Shown piece by piece: positions 9,670 through 38,680 of a DNA stretch of 64,000 nucleotides. This DNA is from Zygnema cylindricum. Lineage: Eukaryota; Streptophyta; Zygnematophyceae; Zygnematales; Zygnemataceae. Every line of letters begins with the position of its first letter. Position 1 is the stretch's first letter. The translations under genes and the position numbers were made by a program. The notes beneath the pieces were generated by a model. That model was not told the origin of the DNA, did no database searches, and was given only the letters and a program-made list of their open reading frames with translations. The stretch covers positions 298,632 through 362,631 of the forward strand of contig JBBHKE010000684.1 of the NCBI GenBank assembly GCA_037447655.1, written 5' to 3'.

Positions 9670-9682
9670 AAAATAAGGGGAG
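9669..9682 (+). other. Polypurine tract of element A
   Basis: GAAAATAAGGGGAG lies immediately before the TG of the 3' LTR and would prime plus-strand synthesis. The same AAAATAAGGGGAG word precedes the 3' LTR in E5 and H (plus strand) and, as its complement, in E3, E6 and E7. Confidence 0.85.
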
Positions 9683-12432: not shown

Positions 12433-13543
12433 ACAACTCCTCATCCAAAAGAAGTTCGTCATCCTCCTCATTAGATTCCTCCTCAAGTACTTGTGAGACA
12501 AGTGCCTTTTTCTTCCCTCGTGGTTGACCCCCGGTCTGCCCCTCCTTTATCCGAAGCTCGGTCTGTTTGGTACATTCCGCCATGTAATGCCCGGATTTAT
12601 TTCAGAAATGACAAAGCCCCTTAGGTCCCATTGTTATTGACTCATTGGATTAAATTTTCTGGTTTTCCCCTCCATGACTTCTAATGGGTTTCCGTGAATC
12701 TTTGTTTCTCCAACTTGCTCTAGCCGCCAAGGCTTGTCCACTTTTAATCCCTCTCCGGATTTCGATTGTATTCTCTCGGACGAGAATCATACCAACTACC
12801 GAATTCCATATCTACCTGGAGATCGACAGATCCTGTACCCATATCACAATGTTCTCATAGTTATTAGGTAGTTTCATGAGTAGGCAGTGAACCTTTGCCT
12901 TCTCGGTTTTTGCATTTCCGGCACACTCTAACTCCTTGAAGAGTATAGCAAGCTCATTAAATAAATCGAGCATCTTCTCCCCTTTGTGAAAGTATCCATT
13001 GATCTTTTGCTCTGCCAGCTTCTGTTTTTGAATCGTACCGCTCTGGTACATATCTATAAGCATATCCCACAGATCAGATGCCCTTTCCACCTGCAAATGA
13101 GGACTTCTGAGTCCTTGTGTGAGGTGACGGAGGATAAAATGCTTGGCCGCCATGTTGGTGTAGTCCCAAGTATCGATGTCATTCTCCTCATTCCTCGGAA
13201 TAGGAGACATGAAAACATAACCGGTTGCTTTAGGTGTGGTTTTCTCTTTTTCTTTCCCCTTTTCCATCACGATGCTTTCTTCGTCTTGTGAGTCCTCTGA
13301 TGGCAGTGGATCTGGTTTCCTAGCAAATTTACTTCCTCCAAACCCTAAAGGGATAGCAAAACCGGATGGACGCTTTACTCGCCCACTCACTATTCCCCAA
13401 AATCTTTTCTCACATAGGGCTCCTATCATAATACTCTCCCAGTTGATAAACCCAATCCCATTATATGTGGGCACCCTACAGGATGGGCCCATAACCTGCA
13501 CTTCTGAGACCTCTATTGGTACTGACAGTAGGGAGCTTACCAA
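12433..13543 (-). pseudogene. E1 gag
   Basis: Minus-strand gag starts in the 5' LTR and reads through the PBS as EVSEVQVMGPSCRVP. The usual ATG in the LTR tail is ATA here; an in-frame ATG lies further up at 13541-13543. It carries MIGALCEKRFWGIVSG and KHFILRHLTQGL. The second Cys of the zinc knuckle is a TGA stop (about 12600). The acidic DDELLLDEEL segment ends at 12433, at the U boundary. Its continuation is at 3829. Confidence 0.85.
13482..13496 (-). other. Primer-binding site of E1
   Basis: On the minus strand, GGTTATGGGCCCATC abuts the LTR. It has one mismatch to the 15-base initiator tRNA-Met anticodon-arm complement found in A, E3, E5 and E9. Confidence 0.75.
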
Positions 13544-14478
13544 AAGCCCCTAGGATAGCCTGAATCCCTTAGTCTTTGTATGAGTATTACTGACACCCCG
13601 ACAGATTACAGATGACCAGACTGCAGCCCTCTCCCCTGAGTCTACTACAAAATTAATCCTTGAATTTGCTTCTCGAGTAGTAAATTATCATGGTCAATAA
13701 TGACCTTTTATACATGAGCACTTCGCAAGAGAGGCGGCTACTTCTTATTCTCTTAAGTCCTAAACCCCTCTTTGATCTCTCTACTACTAAATTACGAGCC
13801 AATCTAATCACTCTACAGTACAAAAAGGTACACCGCCTAGAGTACTTTGTGTACGGCTATTGTACGACATGGCCAAAAAGACAACGCCTGCCATATCCGG
13901 ATTTACCATGGTATATCCCGAAGATGCCGCTATTGAATGTCATCTTGGCACGTGTCACCTGGTGTGGTTGTAACCGCACACTGCCAAATCGTCCATTTCG
14001 CGATACCGGCTTGTTCCTCTGCCGTCCGATTGATATTGGCCTTAATTCAGGGTCGTTAAAAATACAAGTGGTGTTTCTGACGTAACTCTATCTAGCTATC
14101 TCTAAGTGATTGTGGTCGTTCTTCAGTTAAATGAACTTTTGTATTTCCATATTGTTAACGTGCTAATGTACCCTATATACTTGAACACCGATGTTAGGCT
14201 ACATGGTAACGATACTAGGCTACTTAGATGGACGGTAAGTACCACGATCAAATTTTGATCTGTCAACCTTTTTCGTAAGTTTACCAAAACGGTAATTTTC
14301 TGACTTTAGGAGAAGCATAGGCAGCCATGGCTCTTGCTTCCTCTCCAGCCTTTAGTGACTTTGGCAAGTATTGGGCCACAGAGAGAAGTGAAAAGCAGGC
14401 TGCCTCTACTTTTTCCTCCTCATTTTAGATCATTTAGGAAACCTAAAAAAATACATAAGAAAACTTTTAATTTCAACA
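13497..14478 (-). repeat. 5' LTR of E1
   Basis: This 982 bp LTR is in minus orientation, from TGTTGAAATTAAAAG (right end) to TCAGAAGTGCA (left end, next to the PBS). The sequence outside, from 14479, is gag of element H. The 3' partner is outside the window. Confidence 0.85.
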
Positions 14479-15310
14479 AAAGATAAGAAGACAGTAACAT
14501 CGATTGCAACACCTATCACAATCGGTTCAGCATTCATGTCACCTATTCCGAGGAATGAGGAGAATGATGCTGATATTTCGGACTGCATCAATATGGCTGC
14601 AAAACATTTCATTCTCCGTCATCTTACTCAAGGACTTGCATCTCCTCATTTCCAGGTGGAAAAGTCATCCGATCTGTGGATTGCCCTCATAGATATGTAC
14701 TGGAGTGGTACTATTCAGCAGCAGCAATTGGCTGATCAAAAGATAGATGCATATATATATAAAGGGGGAAAAATGATAGACTTTTTTAATGAGCTTGCCA
14801 CCCTTTTCATAGAACTAGAGAGTGCTGGTCAAGTAGAAACAAAAAAAGATCAAGGTGAACTGTCTACTTATGAAGTTACCTGATGACTATGAAAACATAG
14901 TCAACCGTGTGCAAGATTTGCCAAATTCCAGGTGGATCTCAAATTCTGTGGTAGGGATGATTCTTGTCCGTGAGAATATAATTGAGATCCGAAGAGGAGG
15001 GAAGAGTGGACAAGCTTTGGCAACAGGAACTGGTTGGAGGAGGAAGGATCCCAGAAAATCAGCATGAAACTACGAAGGAAGAGGATAGAAAACTCAGCCC
15101 AATGAATATGGACCGAGGGTCTCCAAAGGGGTGTGTCACTTTTGCAAGAAACCAGGACACTATTAGCCGAGTGTACTAAGCTAACCAAGCTTTGGTTAAA
15201 GGAGGGGCTCACCTGTGGGCCCCTGAGAGGAAAGAAAAGGCCCTTTTAACACAGGTACATGAAGCAGAATGCGAGGACGAGGATGATGAGATTTTATTGG
15301 ATGAGGAGTT
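14479..15310 (+). pseudogene. H gag (5' end missing)
   Basis: Gag starts in mid-domain because E1 is inserted here. Recognisable stretches are AFMSPIPRNEENDADI, AAKHFILRHLTQGLA and a decayed zinc knuckle (CHFCKKPGHY followed by a TAG) near 15140-15170. A frameshift near 14856 and further indels disrupt it. It closely resembles element A gag. Confidence 0.85.
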
Positions 15311-16636
15311 GTAGACGCAAAACGAGGTCGAAATTCCACGAAAGGAGAAATGTGCTTTTGGTGGATTGATAGGTGAAGATGGCTTGATTGTAGATTCACA
15401 TGCCTCCATGCACATGTGTAAGGATAAACACGTGTTCACTAAGATAAGGAAGATTCCCACCGTAGAGATAGAATACCGGGATAGGAGGATAGTCACTATT
15501 ACTCTTGTAGGGTCGGTAGATTTCAAAGTGTTAGTAGAACGAAAGACATCCATAGTTACATTTTCCGATGTATTGTTTATTCCGGAGCTGAACAAAAACC
15601 TCATATTTACATCTGTATTAGATGACAAGGATTTTGATACTAGCACTAGGAAAGGAGTCTTTACTGCTAGTTTTGAGGAGGAAGTTTATTTCACTGCTGA
15701 AAAAGGCAGCCAAGGGATGTTTAGGCTGAATTTAAGCAATGAAAATAAGAAACTTTATTATGTTGGTGTTCATGATATAATGTTGTGGCATAAGAGGATT
15801 GGGCATGTGAATCTAGATAAGTTAAGAGAGATGAAAAAGATGGGTGATATGGAAGGGATTCTGTTCAGTGAGAGTGAGAATCTAAGTGATTGTAGTGGAT
15901 GTGCTCAAGGTAAAACACACAGGTTACCCTTCCCAAAAACTACCACCTATAAGGGAGAAAAGTTCATAAATTTAGTACACACAGATATTTGAGGACCGGC
16001 TAAAGTGCCCTCACCCGGGGGGAAGAGATTTATGATGACTATCATTAATGATTGGTCTCGGTATTCTAGGGTGTATTTTTTGAAAAATAAGTCAAAGGCT
16101 CAGGAATATTTTAGACAATATAAAGCATGGAGTGAAAAACTCCATGAAACCCTAATCAAGAGAGTTAAGAGTGACAATGGTGGAGAGTATACCTCTAACC
16201 AATTTGAGGATTTTCTGAGGGAAGATGGAGTCCTACACCAAAAGACAGTTCTAGAAAACCCGGAACAGAATAGGGTAGCTGAATGATTAAATAGGACACT
16301 AAGTGATAGTGCTAGAAGTATGTTGTCGGACAAAAAGATAGGAAAAATGTTTTGGGCCGAAGAAATGAACTATGCTAATTACCTCAAAAATAGAGGTTTT
16401 ACTTCAACGATAAAAGGCAAAACACTTTATGAGGGATGGACTGGTCGAAACCTAGACATATCTCTGTTAAAGCTTTTCAAAAGTCAAGTGTTCAGTCTAG
16501 ATACAGATCGGTCTAGCTAGAAGCTAGATCCTAAAGGAAAACCAGGGTACATGTTAGGATATGATGAGGATGTCAAAGGATACAGAGTTTATGATCTTAA
16601 AAGAGATGATATAATCTTAGTAAAACACCTAGTAGT
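15311..16636 (+). pseudogene. H protease and integrase (N-terminal and core)
   Basis: The protease keeps the Asp but reads VDSHASMHMC. The integrase zinc domain (HKRIGHVNLDKL, CSGCAQGKTHRLPFP) and core (SDNGGEY, ENPEQN) are present. Stops lie at 15313, 15990 (Trp to TGA), 16285 and 16518 (Trp to TAG). The reading stops at KHLVV at 16636, where the LTR of E3 begins. The five bases before it, gtagt (16632-16636), are one half of a target-site duplication whose partner is at 24819-24823 on the other strand. Confidence 0.9.
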
Positions 16637-17665
16637 TGCAGTTCTGTTTCATCCATTGGACCACAAAATACAAAAAGCCTCTAGATATTATTTAACTAAC
16701 CCACTTCAAGCCACAACCATTGTTCTCGTGGAAGGCAAAATGACAGTTTGACTACACCCCTATGCAGCTTGGACTCCCCCGAGTCCGTAACAAAAATAAT
16801 TTTTTTTTATCACTGAAAACGGCCAACCTGCCGATAAGTTATAGGTCGGCAAAAATGCCAAGTTTATACAAGCTCTCTAGGAGAGAGAGGTGATATCTAC
16901 CAAAATCCCCTAAGTCCCAAACCTTCTCTCACAACCCCTATCTACTGAAGTACGCTCCAATCATGAGACTGTAAAGTACCAAAAAGTATAGTGGCCAATG
17001 TATTTTTTGTACGACCTCTGTACGACAAGGTCAGGGAGTGGACGTGTGTCGCCGTCTAAGTCATCATTATGTTGTCCGGGATCCCTGCTGCTCAATTCAA
17101 TCTTGCCACGTATCGCTTTGTCACGCCACGTCACGCCACGATTGAAAACCGCCAAAATGACCATTCCAGGACCTCGGCAACGATTAGCGCCGTCAAATAG
17201 AGACCGACATTTAATTTACGCCGTCGAAATAAATGTCCAATTCATTTGTTTCGTGCGGCAGGTTGTACGCATTGAATCTGATATGTTCTATGTTTCCTAT
17301 TTCATAGTTAAGTTAATCGGATTTAAAGTTCTACTCAATGTTTAAATAAATATCGTACCCCATGTATTGTAACGAACTTCTACAAAAAACTGGTTAGAGC
17401 TGACGGCTACGCCGCGCTCTGCTTGTCGGAGGTTCGAGTCTTGCCGGACTCAACCTTTTGTTGAGAGTGACTTAGGTCACTCTTAACTCCTATCTATGGA
17501 GCTGAGGCCATCATGGCTCCACCACCCTCTCTATCCTTTAGTGACTACAACAAGTATGGGGGATAGAGGGAAGAGGTGGACGCAAGCTGCCTGTGTTTTA
17601 CTTTTCTTATTTAAATTAATGTATTAAGACCTAAAAAATACATTATAAATGTGATAATTTCAACA
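16637..17665 (-). repeat. 3' LTR of E3 (LTR type a)
   Basis: This 1029 bp LTR, on the minus strand, runs from TGTTGAAATTATCAC to ACAGAACTGCA. It shares distinctive features with 24824-25851 (GCGTCCACCTCTTCCCTC, AGAGTGACCTAAGTCACTCT) that the other LTR of E3 lacks. An antisense tRNA-like module lies at 17392-17440. Confidence 0.9.
17392..17440 (+). other. antisense tRNA-like module in LTR type a
   Basis: GGTTAGAGC (17392-17400) looks like the 3' part of a tRNA A box and D stem. GGTTCGAGTC (17431-17440) is close to the consensus B box. The spacing is about 30 bases. It lies on the strand opposite to retroelement transcription. No full cloverleaf forms. Confidence 0.6.
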
Positions 17666-19240
17666 CTCCTCTTATTTTCTAGTCCAACTTTAACTTCAGT
17701 CCACACTTTTCTCTACAGTATTTTAACTTGGGTGAAGGCACCGGTTTTGTCATCATATCAGCCACCATTTCCTCATTTGATTTATATACAATTTTCACAA
17801 TCTTATTTTCAACTTTTTCTCTCACATAACTTAATCTTATGTCCATAAGCTTAGCTTTGAAATGATAATTTGGATTAGTTGCAATTGCGATGGTAGCTTG
17901 ATTATCACAAAACACTTCATGCACCCCCTTTTTAATATAACCTAGTTCTTGCAATAAGGACTTGACCCACATCAACTCTTTCACAGAAGAACAAGAGGCC
18001 ATGTACTCAGCCTCCGTAGTAGACTAAGCAACCACCTTTTGTTGTTTACTTCTCCAACAGCAAGCACCTTCCCCCACATACAACACATACCCAGAAATGC
18101 ATTTTCTCATAGGTGCGTCCCAATAGCTCGCATCACACCAAGTAGTGATGTCAATGTGCTCCCCTCCCAAATGCAACCATAATTATCTGGTTCCTACCAG
18201 ATATCTCATGACTCTCTTGGCTGCCTCCCAGTCTCTTTTCCTAGGATCATTAAGACTCCTAATGAGTACTCCAATGGCTGCCACTTTGTCCAGCTTGGTA
18301 CAATTCATAAAATAGATCAAACTTCCTACAACTTGTCTATAAGGGATAGACTTTATAAACTCTCGCTCCTTTGGACTCATCTGATCATCTAAGATCATCA
18401 CTCCTCCTTCTACACTCCAATCACTTACTTTTTTCAAGTCCATGGGAGTGGTACAACTGTTAGCATTTTCTATCTGGAATTTCTTAAGCATATTACCTAT
18501 TGCTTCTTTCTAAGTAAGCCTGATAATCTTCTTCCCCTTATCTCTCTCCATTTGCATCCCCAAAATATATCTTTCCTCCCCTAAATCCTTCATATCTAAT
18601 TTGCTTCTAAGATCTTTCTTTAACTTATTTAGTTTTTCCAAAGATTTACTCAACACAAGCAGATCATCCATATAAATTGCAATAAAAATGACACCATTCT
18701 CATCTTTAATCATATAGATAGAATGGTCAGAGCTGATCCGGATATATCCCAGACCGGTGAGAAACTCTTCTAGTTTCTTATTCCATTGTCGGGGAGCCTG
18801 CTTGAGTCCATATAAGGACTTTATGAGCTTACAGACTTTGCTCTCTTCCCCTACTTCCACGTACCTCTTGGGTTGCCTCATGAAAATTTCTTCCTCTAAC
18901 TCACCATTAAAAAAAGCAGTCTTAATGTCCATCTGGTGTTTTTCCATGTCTTCGGCTGCTGCCAGACCGAGGAGAATCCTTACCGATGGGAACCGAACAA
19001 CTAGAGCAAAGGTCTCCTCATAGTCAATTCCCTCTTTTTGGGTGAGCCCTTTCGCTACCAATCAAGCCTTATATCTCTCTATGATATTATCAAGGTTTAG
19101 TTTTAGTCTAAAAACCCATTAACAGCCAATAAGTTTTTTGTCTCAAGGACAATCCGCTAGTTCCCAATTATTTGCTTCCATGATGGAGGCCATCTCATCA
19201 TTTATGGCTCTAATCTATCTTTTTTTCTCTGAACTATTCA
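17666..19240 (-). pseudogene. E3 reverse transcriptase and RNase H
   Basis: Minus-strand RT (18510-19061) keeps [36 protein letters not shown] and AIYMDDLLVLSKS (YMDD for the usual YVDD). RNase H (17679-18002) keeps EYM(A)SCSSVKELMW and CDNQATIAIATNPNYHFKAK. Stops include TAG in place of Gln at about 18025 (shared with E5) and TAG for Trp near 19218. A polypurine tract (complement of CTCCTCTTATTTTCT, 17666-17680) precedes the 3' LTR. Confidence 0.9.
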
Positions 19241-21010
19241 TTGCCTGCGAGTAGAACTGAGGCTCATCAAGGTGAATAGCTTAGTTACCTTATGAGCGGC
19301 CTGTTTTTCCTGTATCCTTTTGCTGCTATTTTTCCCTCCCTCAAACTCTGAAGCTTGAAAGGATGGAAGTCTTAGATTTCTCCTCACTGTCTCATCGGCT
19401 CCCCTATCCATAGAAGCCGGTTCTAGTCCCACGTGTTCTATCTCCTCGAAGCCCATAGGGGTATGTGAGGTGTTCGGTGAGTCTCTTGTATCTCGGATCT
19501 CCCTTGAATCTGCAATCACCGTTTCACTCATGTCCCTTTTGCGATCGACCGAGTTCTCCTCACTTTCGGACTCAAATCTGATTCTTATCTTCTTTGTATA
19601 TTTGAAGGGGTCAAATGACCTCCCTTCATCCATGGCAACTAAGTGTTTGACCAAAATGATATCTTTCTTTGCTAAGTCATAGACTCTATATCCCTTAACA
19701 TCCTTATCATATCCCACAAAGTATCCAGGTTTTCCCTTTCCATCTAGTTTCCAGTTTTTCTTATCCGTGTAAAGACTGTAAACTTGGCTACAAAATACTT
19801 GAAGGTGTGAGATATATGGTTTCCTTCCAACCCATCTCTCATAAGGTGTCACTAACTTTACAGCTGAGGTAAGAACTCTATTCTTAATGTAGTTGGCACA
19901 GTTCATTGCTTCTACCCAAAATCTCTTTCCTATTTTCTTGTCGGCCAACATACTGCATGCACTATCTCCTATTGTTCGATTCAACATCTCAGCTACCCCT
20001 TGTTCCACGTTATATGGTACATTTTACTGGTGTTGTACTCCCTTATCTCTTTGATATTCCTCAAACTCGTTAGAGGTATATTCCCCCCCATTATCACTCC
20101 TTATCCTATTAATGGGGGTTTCATGCAACTTCTCACTCCAAGCTTTATATTCTTTGAAGTAAGTTGATGCTTCAGACTTTGTTTTCAGAAAGTAGACTCT
20201 AGAGTATCTAGACCAGTCATCAGTTATTGTCATCATAAACCTCTTTCCTCCAACCGAAGGTACTTTTGCAGGCCCCCAAATATCTGTGTGGACTAAATCT
20301 AATACTTTCTCACCTCTATATGTGGCGGCTTTGGGAAAGGGAAGTCTGTGAGCCTTACCTTGAGCACAACCACTACAATCATCCATCATTTCATTATCCC
20401 CAAACTCAATGCCATCTACTACCCCAAGTTTGTTCATTTCCCTTAACCTATCAAAATGTACATGCCCCAACCGCTTATGCCAAATCATCACCTTAGGAAC
20501 ACCAACATAGTAAGCATTCTTCTTTTCATTACTCACGTTAAGCCTAAACATTCCTTGGCTACCCTTATCTGCTGTGAAGTAAACTTCATCCCCATACTTA
20601 GCTGTAAAGACTCCCTTTCTGGTGAAGGTATCAAACTCTTTGTCATCTAACACAGACGTAGAGACAAGATTTTTACTCAGCTGAGGAATGTAAAGTACAT
20701 CTGAGAATGTAAGTATAGAAGTCTTACCCTCCACTAAGACTTTCAGATCTACTGATCCCACTAGATCTGTAGTAACCACTCTCCCATCCCCATACTCTAT
20801 CTCTACAGTAGGGATCTTTCTTAGCTTAGTGAAGAATTCCTTATCACGACACATATGCATGGATGCACCTGAGTTGATGATCCATCCTTCCTGTGGAGCT
20901 TCCCCAATTACTCCAAGGGCACATTTCTGTCTCCGAGGGATCTCCTTCTCCTCCAAATTCTCGTCAAGAAGAAGCTCCCCATCCTCCTCAGAAGACTCAT
21001 CCTCGGTTTC
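19238..21010 (-). pseudogene. E3 protease and integrase
   Basis: The minus strand carries protease motif GWIINSGASMHMC, with Asn for the catalytic Asp. The integrase zinc domain (HKRLGHVHFDRL, CSGCAQGKAHRLPFP) and core (HTDIWGPAKVPS, SDNGGEY) follow. A stop after GVQHQ (20024) and loss of PEQN separate this from EQGVAEMLNRT. From 19772 rightwards the sequence is almost identical to E5. Left of 19771 it diverges. Confidence 0.9.
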
Positions 21011-22016
21011 GCCCGTCACTTTTGTAACCACAAGTGTCTTTTTCTTCCCTCCGGAAGACGTCCCTCCACGTTTCTCTTGGAGCCTCATCTCTGACAGCTT
21101 GACACAATCTGCAATGAAGTGTCTCGGCTTTTTGCAAAGAGGATAAGACCCTTTGGGGGCCTCGGTCCTCCAAAATGATCTCTTTCCCCTTTGTACAGTT
21201 TCTTTGGGTCCTTCCCCCATCAGTCCCCTCCTGCTGCTAGAGCTTGAATGCTATTTCCTCCTCTCCTAATCTCCATTGTGTTTTCCGGCACAAGTATCAT
21301 CGTGACTAGTGTGTTCCATTTCCATGAACTATCAGCCATTTCTTGTACTCGGTACACTATGTTTTCGTACTCATCTTGTAACTTCATGATAAGGGTGTTA
21401 ACTTTCATTTTCATTCTACTTGTCCACCCGGCACTTTCCATTTCCGTATACAAACAAGAAAGATCATTACAGTAATCTAACATCTTTCCTCCTTTGTAAG
21501 TGTAATTAGTAGCTTTTGCTCAGCCAACTGGAGCTCCTGAATAGTTCCAGCTCTATAAATTTCCACCAAACTCACCCACAACTCCTCGGCCTTGTAAATG
21601 TGAAGATGAGGAGTGGCCAAACCTTGAGTGAGGTGCCTCAGAATGAAGTTTTTGGCTGCCATGTTTACATCCTCCCACATTTGAGTATCGTTCTCCACGG
21701 TCTTCACGATTGCCGCTCCCGATACTGTGGCAATAGGAGTGAGGGGTGTCTCCTTCCCTTTCCCCTTTTCGGACACACTGCTGTCCCTATCATCTGCCTC
21801 CTCCGCCGAGGCAGCCGTTGTTGCAGGAAACCTTACTCCCCCAAATCCTGGTGGAGTTCCCGAAGGTGGACGTTTCACTTGTCCACTGACGATACCCCAG
21901 TATCGTTTTTCACACAAAGCTCCCATCATCATGGCTTCCCAATTGATGAACCCCGATCCATTGAAGGTGGGCACCCTAGAGGGTGGGCCCATAACCTGCA
22001 ATTCTGTGTCCTCCAT
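21011..22016 (-). pseudogene. E3 gag
   Basis: The start codon (22014-22016) lies in the 5' LTR. The product begins MEDTELQVMGPPSRVPTFNG, with VMGPP encoded by the PBS. It continues with MMMGALCEKRYWGIVSG and ILRHLTQGLATPHLHIYKAEE. A frame break near 21485 and a TGA at about 21220 divide it. The zinc knuckle has Tyr for the first Cys (YPLCKKPRHFIADC). A KGKGKE basic patch and an acidic tail precede protease. Confidence 0.88.
21982..21996 (-). other. Primer-binding site of E3
   Basis: GGTTATGGGCCCACC on the minus strand lies directly next to the 5' LTR, identical to element A. It is complementary to the anticodon arm of initiator tRNA-Met. Confidence 0.85.
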
Positions 22017-22210
22017 TGGACCACAGAATACAGGAAGCCTCTAGATAGTATTTAACTAACCCACTTTAAGCCACAACCACTCCTGCCCTAGAAGGCAAAC
22101 TGACAATTTGACTGCACCCCTGGGTAGCCTGGACTCCCTTGAGTCCGTAGAAAAAAAAATCACCGAAAAAGGCCAACCAGGCGATAAGTTATAGGGTGGC
22201 AAAGATGCCA

Positions 22211-22217
22211 ATTTATA
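22211..22217 (-). promoter_or_regulatory. LTR TATA box (E3 5' LTR)
   Basis: TATAAAT on the minus strand sits directly downstream of a CTCTCTGAGAG palindrome and about 215 bases before the LTR end, a suitable place for the start of genomic RNA. Confidence 0.55.
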
Positions 22218-22766
22218 CAAACTCTCAGAGAGAGGACTATCTACCTAAATTTTCCTAAGTCCTAGTTTTTCCTACTTCCCTCTCACAGCTCTTATCTACT
22301 GCCTGTACGAACCAATCAAAAACTGTATAGTACAAGAAAGTACTACTGCTGATGTACTTTCTGTACGACCTCTGTACAACAAGGCCATTAAGTGGACGCG
22401 TGTCAATTTTCCACTCGTCCGTACGTTCCTCGGAATTCCCGCGACCGAATGATGTCTTCCCACGTGGCGCCAGGTCATGCCACGTCACTAAATGCCAAAA
22501 TGACCATTCCGAGATTTCGGGAATAATGTGCGCCGTTAGATTTGACGTGAAATTCAATCTCGGCCGTAATAAATACTTGCGCGATATTTGTTTGCTTTCG
22601 AAACAAAATGCGCGAATATCCATTTCAAACAAGTACAGTACTTCGTATTTCGTAGAACTGTATCTATGTGTGGCGTTGAGGGTTTCAGTTAAATGAATCT
22701 AGTACATTACAATAGTTTAAATACTAATGAAACCCTATATCTCCTAACGGACTTCTACGACAAACT

Positions 22767-22816
22767 GGTTAGAGCTAACGGCTACGCCGTGCTCTACCGG
22801 TCGGGGGTTCGAGTCC
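22767..22816 (+). other. antisense tRNA-like module in LTR type b
   Basis: GGTTAGAGC (22767-22775), then a short ACGGC/GCCGT stem resembling an anticodon arm, then GGTTCGAGTCC (22806-22816), an exact B-box consensus match. It is opposite to the LTR sense strand. The equivalent in 30189-31230 is on the minus strand. Confidence 0.65.
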
Positions 22817-23036
22817 TTCCGGACTCAACCTTTTGTTGAGAGTGGCTTAAGCCACTCTTTAGTCCTTCCTATGGAGTTGAGGCAGCCATGGCTCCATTGC
22901 TCTCTCTCTCTCTCCTTCAGTGACTACAACAAGTATGGGGGCGAGAGAGAGAGAAGAGATAGAGGCAGGCTGCCTACTTTTTCTTTTCTAATAAATTTAG
23001 ACCTAGAAAATATATTAAAAACTACTTATTTCAACA

Positions 23037-24823
23037 TTTGGCTTTAAAATGGTGTATAGGGATTGGCAGCAATAGCGATTGCTGCTTGATTATCACAAAA
23101 AAATTATGCACACCACTCTTAAGGTGACCAAGCTCACTAAGCAAAGACTTCTCCCACATCAATTCATTTACAGCAGAGCAAGAGGCCATATATTCAGCCT
23201 CGATGGTGGACTGAGCAATAATCTTTTGTTGTTTGCTACTCCAACAACAAGCTCCATCACCCACATAGAATACATATCCAGAAGTACATCTCCTCATCGA
23301 AGCATCACCATAACTGGCATCACTCGAACAAGTGATGTCAGTACTCCCTCCACCCAAATGCAACCATAGATCCCTAGTTCCTATCAAATATCTAACGAAT
23401 CTCTTTGCTGCCTCCAAATCTCTCTTAGTGGGAGCATTTAGACTTCTACTCAGCACTCCTATAGCTGCAGCCAAATCTGGACGGGTACAATTCATAAAAT
23501 AGATTAGGCTTCCCACTACTTGCCTATAAGAAATAGTTTGCATGAACTTATGTTCTTCGAGACCTAATTCCTCGTCTAAGATTATAACTCCTTCCACACT
23601 TCCCTCACTTCGCTTCTTCAACTCCATTGGAGTTGTACAACTATTAGCCTTATCCATCTGAAATTTTTCAAGCATGTTCCCTATTGCTTCCTTTTGAGTT
23701 AGCCGTATAATCTTTCTTTCTCGGTCTCTTTCTACTTGAATTCCTGAAATATATCTTGCCTCTCCCATATCCTTCATCTCAAATCTCCACTTAAGATTCG
23801 TTTTCAGTTTATTAATTTTATTCATTGATTTACTTAAAACAAGCAAACATCAACATAAATTGCAATAAAAATAACGCCTTCCTCATCTTTGAAAAACATA
23901 GATTGAGTGATCTGAGCTAATCTAGGTGTATCCTAGACCGGTAAGAAACTCATCAAGCTTCTTATTCCACTATCGGGGCGCTTGTTTCAACCCATAAAGA
24001 GATTTAATCAGCCGGGATACCTTACTCTTTTATCCTTGCTCCACAAATCCTTTGGGTTGTCGCATGAAGATTAACTCTTCCTATTCTCCAAAAAAGGTTG
24101 TTTTGAAGTCCATCTGGTGCAGTTCCATGTCTTCCGTTGCTGCCTGGGTGAGAAGTATGCGGACGGAAGGAAATCTGACGACCGTGGCAAAGGTTTCCTC
24201 GTAGTCAATTCAAACTTTCTGTGTAAATCCTTTGGCCACTAATCGGGCCTTGTAGAGCTCAACGGTGTTATCTAGGTTCAGTTTTAATTTGAACACCCAC
24301 TTACACCCGATTGGTTTTCGGTTTGGTGAACAATCCACCAGCTCCCAAGTATCGGCTGCCATGATTGAGGTCATCTCCTCATTAACGGTTGTCTTCCACC
24401 TATTCCTTTCTAGACAATTCATCGCCTCTCCATAAGTCTGAGGTTCATCCGGATGAGAGAGTTTTTTAACCTTGTTATTAGCCTGTTTTTCTTGCAACCT
24501 TTTGCTACTTCTCCTTCTCCCATCAAAATTTGCGGCGGGTATAGATGGTTGCCCTAGGTTCTTTCGAACAATCTTGGCTTCTCCCCTATCCCTTGATTCC
24601 GAATCATTTTCCATCACGTCTTCCGCTTTTGGTAGTGTTGTCACTGGAGTTTCTGCAGCCGAGTCCTTCTCGGTCTGATTTGTACCAGCAAGAATGTCAT
24701 CTTCTCTGAAAAACCCGGATAGTTAGGAAGCTCAAAGTCATCTGAATTTTCTGACTCAAATCTGATTTTTACTGACTTTGTAAACTTGAAGGGATCCACA
24801 GACTTTCCTTCATCCATAACTAC
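23037..24823 (-). pseudogene. H integrase C-terminus, RT and RNase H (inverted segment)
   Basis: This piece of H is inverted relative to the rest. On the minus strand it starts with MDEGKSVDPFKFTKSVKI, passes the linker, then RT ([29 protein letters not shown]), then MKDMGEARYISGIQVERD and RNase H (CSSDASYGDASMRRCTSGY), and ends at HHFKAK. Frameshifts occur near 23850-24210. Its ends carry actac (24819-24823) and tttgg (23037-23041), the partners of the TSDs at 16632-16636 and 31231-31235. Confidence 0.88.
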
Positions 24824-25851
24824 TGTTGAAATTATAAGATTTATAAGGTATTTTCTAGGTCTTAATATAGTAGTTTAAAGAGGAAAAGTAAAGCGCAAGC
24901 AGCCTGCGTCCACCTCTTCCCTCTATCCCCCATACTTGTTGTAGTCACTGAGGGATAGAGAGGGTGGTGGAGCCATAGCTGCCTCAGCTCAATAGACACG
25001 ACTTAAGAGTGACCTAAGTCACTCTCAACAAAAGTTTGAGTCCGGCAGGACTCTAACCTCCAACCGGCAGTGCGCGGCGTAGCCTTCTGCTCTAACCGGT
25101 CTGTTGTAGAAGTTCGTTACAATACATGGGGTACGATATTTATTTATACATTAAGTAGAACTTTAAATCCGATTAATGTTACTATGAAATAGAAAACATA
25201 GAACATATCAGATTCAGTGCGTACAACCGACCGCAAAAAAAAAAAAATCGGACATTTATTTCGACAGCGTAAATTAAATGTCGGTCTCTATCTGACGCCG
25301 CTAATCGTCGCCGAGGTCTTAGAATGGTCATTTTGGCGGTTTTCGGACGTGGCGTGACGTGGCGTGACCTAGCGATACGTGGCAAGATTGAATTGAGCAG
25401 TAGGGGTCCCGGACAACATAATGATGACTCAAACGGCGACACACGTCCACTCCCTGACCTTGTCGTACAGTGGTCGTACAAAAAATACATTGGCCACTAT
25501 ACTTTTTGGTACTTTACAGTCTCATGATTGGAGCGTACTTCAGTAGATAGGGGTTGTGAGAGAAGGTTTGGGACTTAGGGGATTTTGGTAGATAGCACCT
25601 CTCTCTCTTAGAGAGCTTGTATAGACTTGGCATTTTTGCCGACCCATAACTTATCAGCTGGTTGGCCGTTTTCAGTGATAAAAAAAAATTATTTTTGCTA
25701 CAGACTCAGGGGAGTCCACGCTGCATAGGGGTGCAGTCAAACTGTCATTTTTCCTTCTTGGACAGCAGTGGTTGTGGCTTGAAGTGGGCTAGTTAAATAC
25801 TATCTAGAGGCTTCATGTATTTTGTGGTCCAATGGAGGACATAGAATTGCA
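24824..25851 (+). repeat. 5' LTR of E5 (LTR type a)
   Basis: This 1028 bp LTR runs from TGTTGAAATTATAAG to ATAGAATTGCA. It pairs with 16637-17665. A poly-A run and TGTATAGACTTGGC follow the CTCTCTCTTAGAGAG palindrome near 25605. The gag ATG is at 25832, 20 bases before the LTR end. Confidence 0.9.
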
Positions 25852-26860
25852 GGTTATGGGCCCACCCTCTAAGGTGCCCACCTTCAATGGATTTAGGTTC
25901 ATCTATTGGGAAGCCATGATGATGGGAGCTTTCTGCGAAAAACGATACTAGGGTATCGTCAGTGGACAATTGAAACATCTACCTTCATGAACTCCACCAA
26001 GATTTGGAGGAGTAAGGTTTCCTACAGCAACGGCTGCCTCAGCGGAGGAGGCAGAGGATGGGGATAGCAATGTGTCCGAAAAAGGGAAAGGGAAAGAGAC
26101 ACCCCTCACTCCTATTGCCAAAGTCTCGGGAGCGGGGACCGTGAAGACCGCGGAAAACGATACTCAAATGGGGGAGGATGTTAACATGGCTGCCAAGTAC
26201 TTCATTCTGAGGCACCTCACTCAAGCTTTGGCCGCTCCTCATCTTCACATTACAAGGCCGAGGAGTTGTGGGTGAGTTTGGTGGAAATTTATAGAGCTGG
26301 AACTATTCAGGAGCTCCAGTTGGCTGAGCAAAAGCTACTAATTACACTTACAAAGGAGGAAAGATGTTAGATTACTGTAATGATCTTTCTTGTTTGTATA
26401 CGGAAATGGAAAGTGCCGGGTGGACAAGTAGAATGAAAATGAAAGTTAACACCCTTATCATGAAGTTACAAGATGAGTACGAAAACATAGTGTACCGAGT
26501 ACAAGAAATGGCTGATAGTTCATGGAAATGGAACACACTAGTCACGATGATACTTGTGCCGGAAAACACAATGGAGATTAGGAGAGGAGGAAATAGCATT
26601 CAAGCTCTAGCAGCAGGAGGGGACTGATGGGGGAAGGACCCAAAGAAACTGTACAAAGGGGAAAGAGATCATTTTGGAGGACCGAGGCCCCCAAAGGGTC
26701 TTATCCTCTTTGCAAAAAGCCGAGACACTTCATTGCAGATTGTGTCAAGCTGTCAGAGATGAGGCTCCAAGAGAAACGTGGAGGGACGTCTTCCGGAGGG
26801 AAGAAAAAGACACTTGTGGTTACAAAAGTGACGGGCGAAACCGAGGATGAGTCTTCTGAG
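25832..26860 (+). pseudogene. E5 gag
   Basis: The ATG at 25832 is in the LTR and the frame crosses the PBS as MEDIELQVMGPPSKVPTFNG. TAG replaces the Trp of RYWGIVSG (25949-25951). A one-base loss near 26250 shifts the frame, and a TGA ends the reading after QALAAGGD (26627). The zinc knuckle near 26705 has Tyr for the first Cys. From 26251 on the sequence is nearly identical to E3 gag; before that point it differs at many residues. Confidence 0.88.
25852..25866 (+). other. Primer-binding site of E5
   Basis: GGTTATGGGCCCACC, identical to A, E3 and E9, with no spacer from the LTR. Confidence 0.85.
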
Positions 26861-28560
26861 GAGGATGGGGAGCTTCTTCTTGACGAGAATTTGGAGGAGA
26901 AGGAGATCCCTCGGAGACAGAAATGTGCCCTTGGAGTAATTGGGGAAGCTCCACAGGAAGGATGGATCATCAACTCAGGTGCATCCATGCATATGTGTCG
27001 TGATAAGGAATTCTTCACTAAGCTAAGAAAGATCCCTACTGTAGAGATAGAGTATGGGGATGGGAGAGTGGTTACTACAGATCTAGTGGGATCAGTAGAT
27101 CTGAAAGTCTTAGTGGAGGGTAAGACTTCTATACTTACATTCTCAGATGTACTTTACATTCCTCAGCTGAGTAAAAATCTTGTCTCTACGTCTGTGTTAG
27201 ATGACAAAGAGTTTGATACCTTCACCAGAAAGGGAGTCTTTACAGCTAAGTATGGGGATGAAGTTTACTTCACAGCAGATAAGGGTAGCCAAGGAATGTT
27301 TAGGCTTAACGTGAGTAATGAAAAGAAGAATGCTTACTATGTTGGTGTTCCTAAGGTGATGATTTGGCATAAGCGGTTGGGGCATGTACATTTTGATAGG
27401 TTAAGGGAAATGAACAAACTTGGGGTAGTAGATGGCATTGAGTTTGGGGATAATGAAATGATGGATGATTGTAGTGGTTGTGCTCAAGGTAAGGCTCACA
27501 GACTTCCCTTTCCCAAAGCCGCCACATATAGAGGTGAGAAAGTATTAGATTTAGTCCACACAGATATTTGGGGGCTTGCAAAAGTACCTTCGGTTGGAGG
27601 AAAGAGGTTTATGATGACAATAACTGATGACTGGTCTAGATACTCTAGAGTCTACTTTCTGAAAACAAAGTCTGAAGCATCAACTTACTTCAAAGAATAT
27701 AAAGCTTGGAGTGAGAAGTTGCATGAAACCCCCATTAATAGGATAAGGAGTGATAATGGGGGGGAATATACCTCTAACGAGTTTGAGGAATATCAAAGAG
27801 ATAAGGGAGTACAACACCAGTAAAATGTACCATATAACGTGGAACAAGGGGTAGCTGAGATGTTGAATCGAACAATAGGAGATAGTGCATGCAGTATGTT
27901 GGCCGACAAGAAAATAGGAAAGAGATTTTGGGTAGAAGCAATGAACTGTGCCAACTACATTAAGAATAGAGTTCTTACCTCAGCTGTAAAGTTAGTGACA
28001 CCTTATGAGAGATGGGTTGGAAGGAAACCATATATCTCACACCTTCAAGTATTTTGTAGCCAAGTTTACAGTCTTGACACGGATAGGAAAAACTGGAAAC
28101 TAGATGCTAAGGGAAAACCTGGATACTTTGTGGGATATGATGAGGATGTTAAGGGATATAGAGTCTATGACTTAGCAAAGAAAGATATCATTCTCGTCAA
28201 ACACTTAGTTGTCATGGATGAAGGGAAGTCATTTGACCCCTTCAAATATACAAAGAAGATAAGGATCAGATTTGAGTCCGAAAGTGAGGAGAACTCAGTC
28301 GATCCCGAAAAAGACATGAGTGAAACTGTGATTATAGATTCAGGGGAGATCGAAGATACAGGAGACTCACCGGAAACCTCACATACTCCTATGGACTTCG
28401 AGGAGATGGAAGAAGCGGGACAAGATACGGTTTTTATGGACAGGGGAGCCGATGAGACAGTGAGAAGAAATCCAAGACTTCCATCCATTCCAGCTTCGGA
28501 GTTTGAGGGAGGAAGGAGGAGCAGCAAAAGGATACAGGAAAAACAAGCTGCCCATAAGGT
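26861..28560 (+). pseudogene. E5 protease and integrase
   Basis: The protease active site reads IINSGASMHMC (Asp to Asn). Integrase has HKRLGHVHFDRL, CSGCAQGKAHRLPFP, HTDIWGLAKVPS and SDNGGEY, a stop after GVQHQ (27821), then EQGVAEMLNRTIGD. The only difference from E3 that I find in this part up to 28075 is Leu for Pro in IWGLAKVPS. From 28076 on it departs from E3. The linker (GRRSSKRIQEKQ) leads to RT in the same frame. Confidence 0.9.
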
Positions 28561-30174
28561 AACTAAGCTATCTCACCCAGATGAGCCTCTGTCTTACTTA
28601 GAGGTAGTGAATAGTCCAGAGAAAGAAAGATGGATTAGAGCCATAAATGATGAGATGGCTTCTATCATGGAAGCAAATTCTTGGGAACTAGCGGCTTGCC
28701 CTCCAGACAGAAAACCTATTGGATGTAAATGGGTATTTAAACTAAAACTGAACCTAGATAATACAATTGAGAGGTATAAGGCTCGATTGGTAGCGAAGGG
28801 GTTCACCCAAAAAGAGGGGATTGACTATGAGGAGACCTTTGCTCCAGTTGTTCGGTTCCCATCGGTAAGGATTCTCCTCTGTCTAGCCGCAGCGGAAGAC
28901 ATGGAAATTCACCAGATGGATATTAAGACTGCTTTTCTTAATGGTGAGTTAGTGGAAGAAATTTTTATGGGGCAACCCGAGGGGTTTGTGGAAGAAGGAG
29001 AAGAGAGCAAAGTGTGCAGGCTCATAAAGTCCTTATATGGACTGAAACAGGCTCCCCGACAGTGGAATAAGAAACTAGATGAGTTTCTCACCGATCAGGG
29101 ATACATCCGGATCAGCTCTGACCAATCTATCTATATGTTTGAAGATGAGAATGGTGTCATTTTTATTGCAATTTATGTGGATGATCTGCTTGTGTTAAGT
29201 AAGTCTTTAGAGAATATCAATAGGCTAAAGAAAGATCTTAGGGGCAGATTTGATATGAAGGATTTAAGGGAGGCAAAATATATTTTGGGGATCGAAATGG
29301 AGAGAGATAGGGGGAAGAAGATTATCAGACTAACTCTGAAAGAAGCAATAGGTAATATGCTTGAGAAATTCCAGATGGAAAATGCTAACAGTTGTACCAC
29401 TCCCATGGACTTGAAAAAAGGAAGTGATGGGAGTGTAGAAGGAGGAGTGATGATCTTAGACGATCAGATGAGTCCAGAGGAGAGAGAGTTCATGAAGTCT
29501 ATCCCTTATAGACAGGTCGTAGGAAGCTTAATCTATTTTATGAATTGTACCAAGCCGGACATAGCGGCGGCAGTTGGTGTACTCAGTACGAGTCTTAATG
29601 ATCCTAGGAAGAGGGATTGGGAGGCAGCCAAGAGAGTCATGAGATATCTGGTGGGAACTAGAGAGTTATGGTTGCATTTGGGAGGGGAGCACACTGACAT
29701 CACTACTTGGAGTGATGCCAGTTATGGGGACGCACCTATGAGACGATGCACTTCTGGGTATGTGTTGTATGTTGGGGAAGGTGCTTGCTAATGGAGCAGT
29801 AAGCAACAAAAGGTGGTTGCTTAGTCTACTATGGAGGCTGAGTATATGGCGTCTTGTTCTGCTGTGAAAGAACTAATGTGGGTGAAGTCATTATTGGAAG
29901 AACTGGGATATATGAAGGAGGGAGTGCATGAAATCTTTTGCGATAATCAAGCTGCAATCGCAATCGCAGCCAATCCAAAACATCATTTCAAAGCAAAACA
30001 TATGGACATAAGATTAAGCTTCGTAAGAGAAAAAGTTGAAAATAAAATTTTAAATCTTGTGTATAGACCTGATGAAGAAATGGTGGCTGACATGATGACC
30101 AAACTTGTGCCCTCTCCTAAATTAAAATATTGTCGGGAGAAATGCGGGTTAAAAGAAAAATTTAAATTTTACTA
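28561..30174 (+). pseudogene. E5 reverse transcriptase and RNase H
   Basis: RT is open and carries all expected motifs: [57 protein letters not shown] and YVDDLLVLSKS near 29174. Together with the integrase C-terminus this makes a 650-codon open frame (27839-29791). RNase H starts well (WSDASYGDAPMRRCTSGY), then has TAA at 29789 and TAG for Gln near 29822. The second is shared with E3. CDNQAAIAIAANPKHHFKAKH follows. RT itself may be catalytically competent. Confidence 0.92.
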
Positions 30175-30188
30175 GAAAATAAGGGGAG

Positions 30189-31230
30189 TGTTGAAATAAG
30201 TAGTTTTTATTATATTTTCTAGGTCTAAATTTATTAGAAAAGAAAAAGTAGGCAGCCTGCCTCTATCTCTTCTCTCTCTCTCTCGCCCCCATACTTGTTG
30301 TAGTCAGTGAAGGAGAGAGAGAGAGAGCAATGGAGCCATGGCTGCCTCAATTCCATAGGAAGGACTAAAGAGTGGCTTAAGCCACTCTCAACAAAAGGTT
30401 GAGTCCCGAAGGACTCGAACCCCCGACCGGTAGAGCGCGGCGTAGCCTTTAGCTCTAACCAGTCTGTCGTAGAAGTCCGTTAGGAGATATAGGGTTTCAT
30501 TAGTATTTAAACTATTGTAATGTACTAGATTCATTTACCTGAAACCCTCAACGCCACACATAGATACAGTTCTACGAAATACGAAGTACTGTACTTGTTT
30601 GAAATGGATATCGCGCATTTTGTTTCGAAAGCCAAACAAATATCGCGCAAGTATTTATTACGGCCGAGATTGAATTTCACGTCAAATCTAACGGCGCACA
30701 TTATCGCCGAAATCCCGGAATGGTCATTTTGGCATTTAGTGACGTGGCATGACCTGGCGCCACGTGGGAAGACATCATTCGGTCGCGGGAATTCCGAGGA
30801 ACGTACGGACAAGTGGAAAGTGGACACGCGTCCACTTAATGGCCTTGTCGTACAGAGGCCGTACAGAAAGTACATCGACAGTAGTACTTTCTTGTACTAT
30901 ACAGTTTTTGATTGGTTCGTATAGGCAGTAGATAGGAGCTGTGAGAGGGAAGTAGGAAAAACTAGGACTTAGGAAAATTTAGGTAGATAGTCCTCTCTCT
31001 GAGAGTTTGTATAAATTGGCATCTTTGCCACCCTATAACTTATCGCCTGGTTGGCCTTTTTCAGTGATTTTTTTTTCTACGAACTCAGGGGAGTCCAGGC
31101 TACACAGGGGTGCAGTCAAATTGTTAGTTTGCCTTCTTGGGCAGCAGTGGTTGTGGCTTAAAGTGGGTTAGTTAAATATTATCTAGAGGCTTCCTGTATT
31201 CTGTGGTCCAATGGAGGACACATAATTGCA
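30189..31230 (+). repeat. 3' LTR of E5 (LTR type b)
   Basis: This 1042 bp LTR runs from TGTTGAAATAAGTAG to ACATAATTGCA. It pairs with 21997-23036. AAAATAAGGGGAG (polypurine tract) precedes it. TSD ccaaa follows at 31231-31235. Confidence 0.9.
31010..31016 (+). promoter_or_regulatory. LTR TATA box (E5 3' LTR)
   Basis: TATAAAT directly follows a CTCTCTCTGAGAG palindrome, in the same place as in E3 and E9. Confidence 0.55.
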
Positions 31231-31235
31231 CCAAA

Positions 31236-31399
31236 CACATGGACATTAGACTCAGTTTTGTTAGAGAGAATGTAGAAAACAAAATAATCTGTTTAGAGTA
31301 CCGACTAGATAGCGAGATGGTAGCATATATGATGACCAAATCTGTGCCTTCCCCTAAGCTTATTTTTTGCAAGGAGAAATGTGGTCTGAAATTAAAGAG
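31236..31399 (+). pseudogene. H RNase H tail
   Basis: The final codons of H pol read HMDIRLSFVRENVENKIICL and continue to MMTKSVPSPKLIFCKEKCGL. They complete the RNase H interrupted at HHFKAK in the inverted segment (23037). A stop and the polypurine tract (31406-31419) follow. Confidence 0.9.
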
Positions 31400-31419
31400 T
31401 GACTAGAAAATAAGGGGAG

Positions 31420-32461
31420 TGTAGAAATTAATGGTTATTTTTAGTATTTTCTAGGTCTAAAATAAAATGCGGAAAAGAAGGCGAGGCAGTCTGCCTCTAA
31501 CTCCTCTCTTCAGCCCCCACAATTGTCGCATTCATTAAAGGTTGAAGAGGAAGTTAGAGTCATGGCTGCCTATGCCGTTTAAAGGTAGAGAGACAGGTGG
31601 TAGATTTTGGTAGATTTACCAAAACTTACTTGACGAACCCAGGATTTGATTTTGGTACCTACCGTCCGTCAAGTCCAGCCGTAGCCGGTAGCTTTATCTT
31701 ATTAGTATAGGATTGGTGCTGATACATACTGAGTTTGACATTTATTTAAATTACTATACGTACACAAGTTCGTTTTACGGTGCGAACAATTTTTCAAACT
31801 TAGACACATTTTTGTATAGTACGACGTACGTTACTTCACCAAATGAATATCGCACATTGGTTTCGACCGCGAAACAAATATCACGCAATTGATTTCGACG
31901 GCTATAATTAAATGCTGATCTAGATCAAACGACCGTGATAGATGCCGAGATCGCGGAATGGACCCTTCGGTCATCGTCACGTCAAACGACATGTGGCAAA
32001 ATCACATTGGCCTGCGTCATCTCCGGAGAATACGAGAACAAATTCGGATATGGCAGATTTCAACATTTTGGCCATACCGTACAATGGCCCTACATAATGT
32101 ACATCGGCACCTATACTTTTCTGTACGATACATTAATATGATTGGTCCATATTCTAGTAGTATAGGGTTTAGAGAGGGATTTAGGACTTAGAAAATTTGG
32201 TAGGTAGACCCCTCTCTCCCAAAGAGCTTCTGTACAAAAGGTCAACTTTGACCCTTAATAACTTACTGCTCAGAGGAGCAAATCACAGATTCCTTTTGCT
32301 ATAGACTCAGGGGAGTCTTGTCTTCACACGGGTGAAGTTGGTCAAAGTTTTTATTTTTCAGGGTGACACTTATTATTATGGAATACAAAGGGGTCACGGT
32401 TATCCTCAAGGCTTCGAATGAGCTGCTTACTCTGAAGGCCAATGGAGGTCTCACAGTTTCA
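31420..32461 (+). repeat. 3' LTR of H
   Basis: This 1042 bp LTR runs from TGTAGAAATTAATGG to ACAGTTTCA. It resembles the LTRs of element A in its first motif and in its GTTTCA end. It is followed by tccct inside a minus-strand gag. The 5' partner is off the window. Confidence 0.85.
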
Positions 32462-32716: not shown

Positions 32717-33220
32717 TGATATTTGAGTATTTTTTAGGTCTTTATTTAGGATAGGAAAAAGAGCAAAGGCAGTTTGCCTTTGACTCCCTTCTTTAAGCCT
32801 CCACATTTGTTGTAGTCACTGAAGGCTGGAGAGGGAGCTAGAGCCATGGCTGCTAAGCTCTCCAGAGATAGGAGTAGATAATGGTAGGTTTACTAAAAAG
32901 GTATTTGACGAACCCAAGATTTGATCCTGGTACTTACCGTTAGTCAAACAACCCGTAACCGTTAGCTTTGTCCGTTTAGTCTGAACTAGTGCTAGGATAT
33001 GTAGGGTTTAATAGATATTAAAATAGTTACACGTAGGGCTTTCCATTTAATTGGATTACGGTATATAGGGCATAGAAACACTTGTACTTTAAGTACCGGA
33101 CAAAACAAATAGTACGGACATTTGTTTCGACGGTCCGCATTAAATGCCGAAATAAATCGGACGGCCATGGTTAAGCACCTGCTTCAGGGAAAGGATAATT
33201 TGGCAGTTTGCGGACGTCAC
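32717..33220 (+). repeat. 5' half of a plus-strand LTR, cut by E6
   Basis: It starts TGATATTTGAGTATTTTTTAGG and has the usual GTAGTCACTGAAGGCTGGAG and antisense tRNA-like AAGATTTGATCCTGG. It stops at GTCAC where the E6 LTR begins. I do not find its 3' half in the window, which suggests a deletion on the other side of E6. Confidence 0.7.
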
Positions 33221-34215
33221 TGCAACTCTGAGACCTCTATTGGTACTCAGAGTAGGCAGCTTGCTAGAAGCCTCTAGGATAACCTCAGTTCTTTAAGCTT
33301 TGTTTGAATATTGCTGACACCCTAACATAACACAGACTGACCGAACTGCACCCTTTGGAAGAGCTGACTCCCGTGAGTCCGCCACAAAAAAGATTCCTTG
33401 AATTTACTCCCCTGAGCAGTTTTTTATCAATGGTCAAAGATGACCCTTTTATACCGGAGCTCTCGGAGAGAGAGGCGGCTACCTCTAACTTTTTTAGAAG
33501 TCCTAAACCCCTCTCTAAACCCTGTTCTACTGATGTACAGAGCCAATCAATTGAGTGTATAGTAGAGAAAGGTACTTGGTCCGGAGTACTTTCTTTACGG
33601 CCATTGTACGACATGGCCAAAAAGACGACGCCTGCCATATTCGAGTTCGCCATAGTATTTCTCGGAGATGCCATCATCCAATGTCATGCAACCATGTGTC
33701 ACCCATTGTGGCTATGACCGCAAACCGCCAAATGGACAATTCCGCGATGGCGGCTTCTTTCTCCGTCGTTAGATTGATGTTGGCCTTAATTTATAGCCGT
33801 CAAAAATACAAGTAGTACCTTTCTGGTGTAATTTTATTTAACTCTGTCTGTGTGATTGTGGTCCGCTTGTCAGTAAATCGAACTTCTGTATTTCGTCATC
33901 TTTAAGTAACTATCAAACCCTATATACTTCAACACTGGTCTTAGACTACAGGGTAAGACTAACGGCTACTTTGATGGATGTTAGGTACCAGGATCAAATC
34001 CTGGGTCCGTCAATCCTTTTGGTAAGTTTACTGAGGATCTACCTTCTGACTCTAGAAGGAGCATAGGCAGCCATGGCTCTAGCTTCCTCTCCAGCCTTCA
34101 GTGACTACGAGAAGTATCGGGGCTAGAGAGAGAAGTTAGAAGAAAGCTGCCTCTGCTTTTTCCTGCTACTACTTAAATCATTTAAATAACCTAAAAAATA
34201 CCTTTAATTTCAACA
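33221..34215 (-). repeat. 3' LTR of E6
   Basis: This 995 bp LTR, on the minus strand, runs from TGTTGAAATTAAAGG to CAGAGTTGCA. It is most like the E1 5' LTR. The plus strand carries GGTACCAGGATCAAATCCTGG (33986-34006), which folds into a T-arm-like 5 bp stem with a 7-base loop. Confidence 0.88.
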
Positions 34216-37150: not shown

Positions 37151-37649
37151 ATCTTCTCAAAGCTAGCTATAAAGACTCATTTTTCTGGTGCTAGTTTCAA
37201 ATCCTTTATCATCTAATACATATGTAGGGATAAGATTTTTGTTTAACTTCGGAATAAACAATACATCGGAAAACGTAATTTTGAGGTTTTTCCCTCCACT
37301 ACGACTTTCAGATCTACCAGTCCTACATAAGTAGTGGTCATTACCCTCCCATCCCTATATTCAATCTCTACTGTAGGGATCTTTCTCAGCTTAGTAAACA
37401 TATGTTTATCCTTGCACATGTGCATGGATGCACCTCAATCCACAATCCAGCCTCCTTCACCTTTCAGTCCACTGAAAGCACATTTTTGCTTTCATGGGAT
37501 TTCGACTTCTGTCTTTGCCTCCAACTCCTCTTCCAAAAGAAGTTCGTCGTCCTCCTCATCGAATTCCTCCTCGAGTACCTGTGTGAGAAGTGCCTTTTTC
37601 TTCCCTTGTGTTTGACCCCCAGTCTGCCCCTCCTTTATCCAAAGCTTGT
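37151..37649 (-). pseudogene. E6 protease and end of gag
   Basis: The minus strand carries the acidic FDEEDDELLLEEELEAKTEVEIP region and the start of protease, with TGA in place of the Ser of DSG (about 37440) and a frameshift near 37155. It ends at a gag codon next to TELRIKEG, at the left end of element B. Confidence 0.85.
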
Positions 37650-38657: not shown

Positions 38658-38680
38658 CTCCCCTAAACCTTTATAATCTC

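Follow-up and report, generated by a model that had tools for sequence, protein, structure and literature searches.

Crossed target-site duplications and reciprocally chimeric elements suggest an inversion by ectopic crossover between nested copia retrotransposons in Zygnema cylindricum

In a 64,000-nt stretch of the Zygnema cylindricum genome (assembly GCA_037447655.1, contig JBBHKE010000684.1, positions 298,632-362,631; the whole stretch is called the window here and coordinates are counted from its first nucleotide) we found two long terminal repeat (LTR) retrotransposons lying in opposite orientation within a third one, the host element H. These two elements, E3 (16637-23036, minus strand) and E5 (24824-31230, plus strand), carry target-site duplications and LTRs that match across the elements and not within them, and the piece of H between them is inverted. 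Very probably two elements, X and Y, which had inserted into H in opposed orientation, crossed over with each other inside a shared tract of 1.8 kb and thereby inverted the H segment between them. Relatives of the elements were retrieved from the same assembly (353 Mb in 2689 contigs), which was also used for all genome searches.

Both E3 and E5 have LTRs with TG..CA ends and 5-bp target-site duplications. The flanks of E3 read GTAGT and TTTGG and those of E5 read ACTAC and CCAAA, so that matches exist solely across the elements and as reverse complements (gtagt with actac, tttgg with ccaaa). The duplication of X is found as gtagt at the outer end of E3 (16632-16636, plus strand) and as an inner copy beside E5 (24819-24823, minus strand; actac on the plus strand), and that of Y as an inner copy beside E3 (23037-23041, minus strand; tttgg on the plus strand) and as ccaaa at the outer end of E5 (31231-31235, plus strand). 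Among control elements in the window, with flanks read by eye, 4284-10731 has the matched duplication caaaa and 37648-43821 has gctt or gcttg, depending on the LTR edge chosen; the duplication of a third control, 49372-55594, was unreadable because its 3' LTR match ends early.

The LTRs are paired in the same crossed manner. The X 3' LTR at the outer end of E3 (16637-17665, minus strand) is identical to the X 5' LTR at the inner end of E5 (24824-25851, plus strand) at 937 of 1028 positions (91.2%), and the Y 5' LTR at the inner end of E3 (21997-23036, minus strand) to the Y 3' LTR at the outer end of E5 (30189-31230, plus strand) at 1010 of 1039 (97.2%), versus 727/988 (73.6%) within E3 and 729/988 (73.8%) within E5. 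A maximum-likelihood tree of six LTRs supported the crossed pairs with 100/100 and 100/99, and with 13 further family LTRs included the X pair stood alone (98/98). An initial annotation of this DNA had claimed that the flanks are unmatched within E3 and E5 and that flanks and LTRs pair across them; we read the same 5-bp flanks, its LTR coordinates proved right, and neither tree grouped the LTRs within E3 or within E5, the X pair being resolved and the Y pair falling in a clade of four.

The pieces of H are ordered as expected for an inversion when aligned to its paralogue at 4284-10731. H left (14481-16636, plus strand), which ends in GTAGT, and H right (31231-32461, plus strand), which holds the end of pol and the H 3' LTR (from about 31420), are collinear with the paralogue, with 14509-16636 corresponding to 5585-7713 (84.4% identity) and 31233-32461 to 9496-10731 (74.5%). 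H middle (23037-24823, minus strand; 1.8 kb), a part of the pol region, corresponds to 7709-9498 (88.4%) only when reversed. The first join (7713 versus 7709) has a five-base overlap, which is the target-site duplication. The claim of the initial annotation that flipping 23037-24823 rejoins H pol was thus borne out by this alignment. The paralogue itself runs unbroken through both insertion sites, with gtagt present once where X sits in H and ctaaa once at the Y site, where H has ccaaa; a further paralogue (near 34372-36240, minus strand) likewise continues through both without interruption. Empty X and Y target sites were seen in these paralogues within the window only. H itself is incomplete: its 5' LTR is lost, and it is cut off at about 14481 next to an LTR of a different element on the minus strand (about 13496-14480). 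The adjoining element at 12434-14480 is itself truncated and consists of part of gag and this LTR.

The internal regions of E3 and E5, which align over 5071 bases at 91.1% on opposite strands, were compared with relatives. X relatives were taken as the stretches around the six best X-LTR matches outside the window. A site was called diagnostic if at least 85% of the Y copies had one base and at least 60% of the X pieces another, with no X piece having the Y base; the X rows were seven pieces (C478a, C478b, C478c, C38_dn, C38_up, C1585 and C825b), set beside Y-family pieces, and C825a, C1529a, C1529b, C1529c, a Y-like copy on contig C38 and the element E7 were left out. On the 5' side of the shared tract E3 (21598-21996, minus strand) was Y-type at 7/7 diagnostic sites and E5 (25852-26249, plus strand) X-type at 7/7. 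On its 3' side E5 (28076-30188, plus strand) was Y-type at all 106 sites and E3 (17666-19771, minus strand) X-type at 96 of the 106. The Y family is young, with 39 other scored copies matching the Y 3' part at 98%.

The Y-like copy on contig C38 is independent of the definition of diagnostic sites and gave the same picture. It is 95.2% identical to the 5' part of E3, and among discordant sites it agreed there with E3 at 29 and with E5 at 8 of 38, while 3' of the tract it agreed with E3 at 46 and with E5 at 197 of 250. This switch of agreement from E3 to E5 across the tract is highly significant (Fisher p = 1.7e-12). Separate trees likewise joined the C38 copy to E3 for the 5' piece (85/93) and to E5 for the 3' piece (96/97). 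The reading frames have decayed in the same crossed pattern. At the 5' end an open frame of 172 codons survives in E3, whereas the frame of E5 is broken; towards the 3' end it is E5 that is open, with a frame of 655 codons extending into the 3' part, and E3 that is broken. E3 and E5 are, as judged from these comparisons, reciprocal chimeras, E3 with a Y-type 5' and an X-type 3' part and E5 the reverse. The Y-like internal region on C38 (C38:9440-15850) has LTRs only about 75-82% like those of Y, and in 11 of the 19 Y-family copies retrieved the LTR resembles that of Y at only about 82-84% over some 700 bases. LTRs and internal regions therefore assort between subfamilies in this genome.

The switch between X and Y types falls inside a tract that is almost identical in both elements (E3 19772-21597, minus strand; E5 26250-28075, plus strand; 1825 of 1826 positions identical), whereas its flanks are identical at only 360/398 (90.5%) and 1856/2106 (88.1%) sites. 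At the sole differing base E5 is the odd one out. Among 481 other copy pairs at 80-92% identity, the longest run with at most one mismatch was 111 bases; 112 pairs at 92-95% had runs of up to 427 bases, found in pairs of the tract with Y-family copies, and 408 pairs above 95% had runs of up to 1719 bases. In a genome search the tract was found at about 100% only in E3 and E5, the other 38 copies listed being 92-95% identical (40 of 7188 candidates scored).

Compared with the Y-family majority the tract is a patchwork of four patches with approximate edges. Differences from this majority shared by both copies were found at 4 of 186 sites in patch 1 (about 26250-26435, Y-type), 54 of 659 in patch 2 (about 26436-27094, X-type), 6 of 686 in patch 3 (about 27095-27780, Y-type, with one further difference in E5 only) and 23 of 295 in patch 4 (about 27781-28075, X-type). 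The rates differ between patches 2 and 3 (p = 1.3e-11) and between patches 1 and 2 (p = 0.003). For scale, of 1918 sites at 28264-30188, 24 differed from the majority in E5 only, 215 in E3 only and 10 in both alike. Both copies agree at all 36 diagnostic sites of the tract, with 4/4 Y-type in patch 1, 17 X-type, 3 Y-type and 1 neither in patch 2, 8/8 Y-type in patch 3 and 3/3 X-type in patch 4. Since both copies have the same Y-X-Y-X patches, conversion is needed besides a crossover. It likely went in both directions; if X and Y were the sole parents, each overwrote the other in two patches. The first pol frame of E5 is closed by a stop codon in patch 4 (27821-27823), and this codon likely came from the older copy. 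Directly beside the tract, at 28076-28263, E3 and E5 differ by only about 5%, versus about 12% further 3', perhaps the result of older or partial conversion.

A course of events can be proposed from these observations. X would have inserted into H first and Y then in the opposite orientation, and the homology between them would have allowed them to pair as inverted repeats. An ectopic crossover inside the tract would then have flipped the H segment between them. This inversion would require solely the host recombination machinery. Opposed insertions and an internal crossover account for every feature except the patches, which might have come from mismatch repair of heteroduplex or from two or more successive conversions. 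For example, a break in X that was filled from Y in patch 3, with the flanking heteroduplex repaired towards X, could have left the X-Y-X core. The two opposite insertions and the crossover had already been proposed in the initial annotation and are supported by the crossed duplications, the crossed LTRs, the inverted H segment and the chimerism. Its "one crossover" stands as the simplest reading only, because any odd number of crossovers would give the same arrangement; this number, the order of insertion and the route of repair are all inferred.

Given the LTR divergences (K = 0.095 for X and 0.0285 for Y), the natural sequence of events is X first, Y second and the exchange last. For the tract the divergence is about 0.0005 per site (upper 95% limit 0.003), and the last exchange between X and Y should thus be much later than both insertions, at about 2% (at most about 11%) of the age of Y in relative terms. 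The tract dates the last homogenising exchange, and the crossover itself could in principle be earlier.

Several observations weigh against this explanation or parts of it. In the larger LTR tree the Y pair lies in an unresolved clade of four rows (99/98) with two other family copies, which are 96.8-97.6% identical to the Y LTRs while these are 97.2% identical to each other; the Y pairing is therefore proven by the crossed scar and not by the tree. In the 3' part of E3 six of the 106 diagnostic sites are Y-type and four are neither. On the 5' side of the tract eight of nine other relatives, X-like ones included, favour E3 over E5 (22-24 versus 11-14 sites) and the ninth is even (18:18). The X identity of E5 in this part thus rests on the seven diagnostic sites and is the weakest link. 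Within the tract, 3 of the 21 diagnostic sites in patch 2 are Y-type, and patch 1 is short, with 186 bases, four diagnostic sites and four comparison copies. Private mutations polarised with E7 alone ran in the expected direction at 11:22 (p = 0.08) and 117:101 (p = 0.31), neither being significant; polarisation by E7 alone was too weak and relatives from the same genome were used instead. Finally, three genome searches, each with about 40 candidates scored, found no un-inverted allele or relative and no allelic contig.

The identical Y-X-Y-X pattern in both arms could conceivably have arisen in one event. The two copies would have paired along 1.8 kb, perhaps by one strand folding back on itself, and as the crossover turned the loop around, mismatch repair would have chosen X or Y for each patch in both arms at once. 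We regard this as a tentative idea with the odds against it. If true, the repair of heteroduplex between sequences that differ by about 10% could be read from nested inverted retrotransposons as from a natural record. Somewhat less likely is that X or Y inserted as a natural mosaic, made beforehand by template switching in reverse transcription, and that a single conversion tract with the crossover then copied this mosaic. This would change the reading of the patchwork only and leave the inversion unaffected. It fits the assortment of LTRs and internal regions seen in the 11 of 19 Y-family copies and in the Y-like copy on C38. However, no other copy among the 40 scored of 7188 candidates exceeds 95% over the tract, and none of the 19 Y-family copies exceeds 93.3% in patch 2 or 4. 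Patch 3 is also as near to the Y family as Y itself (6/686), although X has diverged far more from its relatives than Y has (end branches 0.059 versus 0.025).

The crossover between X and Y may also have been only one of many, with the arms exchanging again and again, the orientation polymorphic and the tract homogenised in the process. Such repeated flipping is compatible with the inversion as proposed and differs from it in the number of crossovers. Two-way conversion and a tract with almost no divergence would agree with it, and inversions between inverted repeats are described as recurrent in humans (PMC3961182). Against it, the assembly holds a single arrangement, no allelic contig was found among the scored candidates, and X and Y remain distinct outside the tract; we therefore consider it improbable.

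The rival which deserves the most serious attention is an artefact of assembly or consensus, with X and Y collapsed over the tract, the mixed consensus used twice and the middle segment misoriented. One sequence used twice, with patches of 186-686 bases, does resemble a collapsed repeat polished in blocks. Yet family copies with 99.7-99.9% identity in these segments are resolved by the assembly on different contigs, and X and Y, about 95% identical at 28076-28263, are resolved right beside the tract. One base does differ between the tract copies, and at the diagnostic sites counted above the patches are nearly pure and not site-by-site mixtures. The window is without any N in an assembly of 353 Mb in 2689 contigs. 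This rival is disfavoured and has, in our estimate, no better chance than repeated flipping, if not a slightly poorer one. Retroelement recombination during reverse transcription is known to produce chimeras, but two ready-made chimeric insertions by unrelated events with a separate end-joining inversion of the H piece are extremely improbable, as they would not produce the crossed 5-bp duplications at both ends of both elements, which already contradict them, and as the switch inside the tract is present, among the scored copies, in E3 and E5 only.

Inversion by recombination between opposed elements is a known mechanism; new here is a small, nested copia case with a readable conversion record. 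Hughes and Coffin are said to have inferred rearrangements at human endogenous retroviruses in 2001 from mismatched duplications and LTR trees; our inference from crossed LTRs and target sites is alike, while host and element superfamily differ. For inversion 2z3 of Drosophila buzzatii, made by the element Galileo, exchanged duplications and chimeric copies are the published proof of an element-mediated inversion (PMC2775673). It shares with our case the opposed copies, the exchanged target-site duplications, the chimerism of both copies and a breakpoint inside the elements. In that case, however, the element is a DNA transposon and a sequence of the non-inverted arrangement was obtained (PMC2775673), whereas here LTR retrotransposons are nested in a third one, a few kb are inverted, the conversion tract is a patchwork and no non-inverted allele was found. 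In plants, intact LTR retrotransposons that lack duplications are put down to unequal recombination (Shirasu 2000, Vitte and Panaud 2003, cited in PMC7251063). Recombination between elements leaves unmatched duplications there as it does here, but the passage in question concerns element removal with solo LTRs (PMC7251063), while in the window the copies lie inverted and the two products have stayed next to each other. Patchy tracts have been described for mitotic recombination in yeast, where about 20% of events are patchy in repair-proficient strains and converted and unconverted markers alternate as in our tract (PMC5531827). The yeast events took place between homologues in the laboratory (PMC5531827), unlike the natural case here between inverted repeats about 10% apart, in which both arms have the same patches. 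A literature search for exchanged target-site duplications gave no match, from which absence from print is not claimed.

The locus is a self-documenting case, in which scars, LTR pairs, the order of the host element, chimerism and the conversion record agree, all from one assembly without an outgroup. Any repeat-rich genome might be screened in a similar way, by looking for crossed duplications combined with identical tracts whose flanks have diverged. Such scans would give counts of small inversions and a view of repair at diverged repeats. The dating of elements by LTR pairs is also concerned, as it errs if the own LTRs of such an element are compared (73.6% and 73.8% identity versus 91.2% and 97.2% for the crossed pairs).

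The domains encoded by the elements of the window (gag-pre-integrase, integrase, SH3-like and RVT_2 in Pfam) are those of Ty1/copia, and X and Y look like ordinary members of this group. The Pfam domains rve, SH3_retrovirus and RVT_2 occur in that order at 34592-37150 and across two open frames of E5. A protein search gave distant copia relatives with 34-48% identity among the 120 listed of 6643 matches, and an Rfam scan of the window at gathering scores gave no match. Directly after the 5' LTRs (after 25851 and after 5331) the sequence ggttatgggc... is found, which may be complementary to the anticodon arm of an initiator tRNA-Met and not to a tRNA 3' end, as it is in those copia elements that are primed by a half tRNA. 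Further minus-strand copia pieces at 33220-37647 and 37648-43821 are packed end to end, the former appearing without its 5' LTR where the latter, with its matched duplication, begins.

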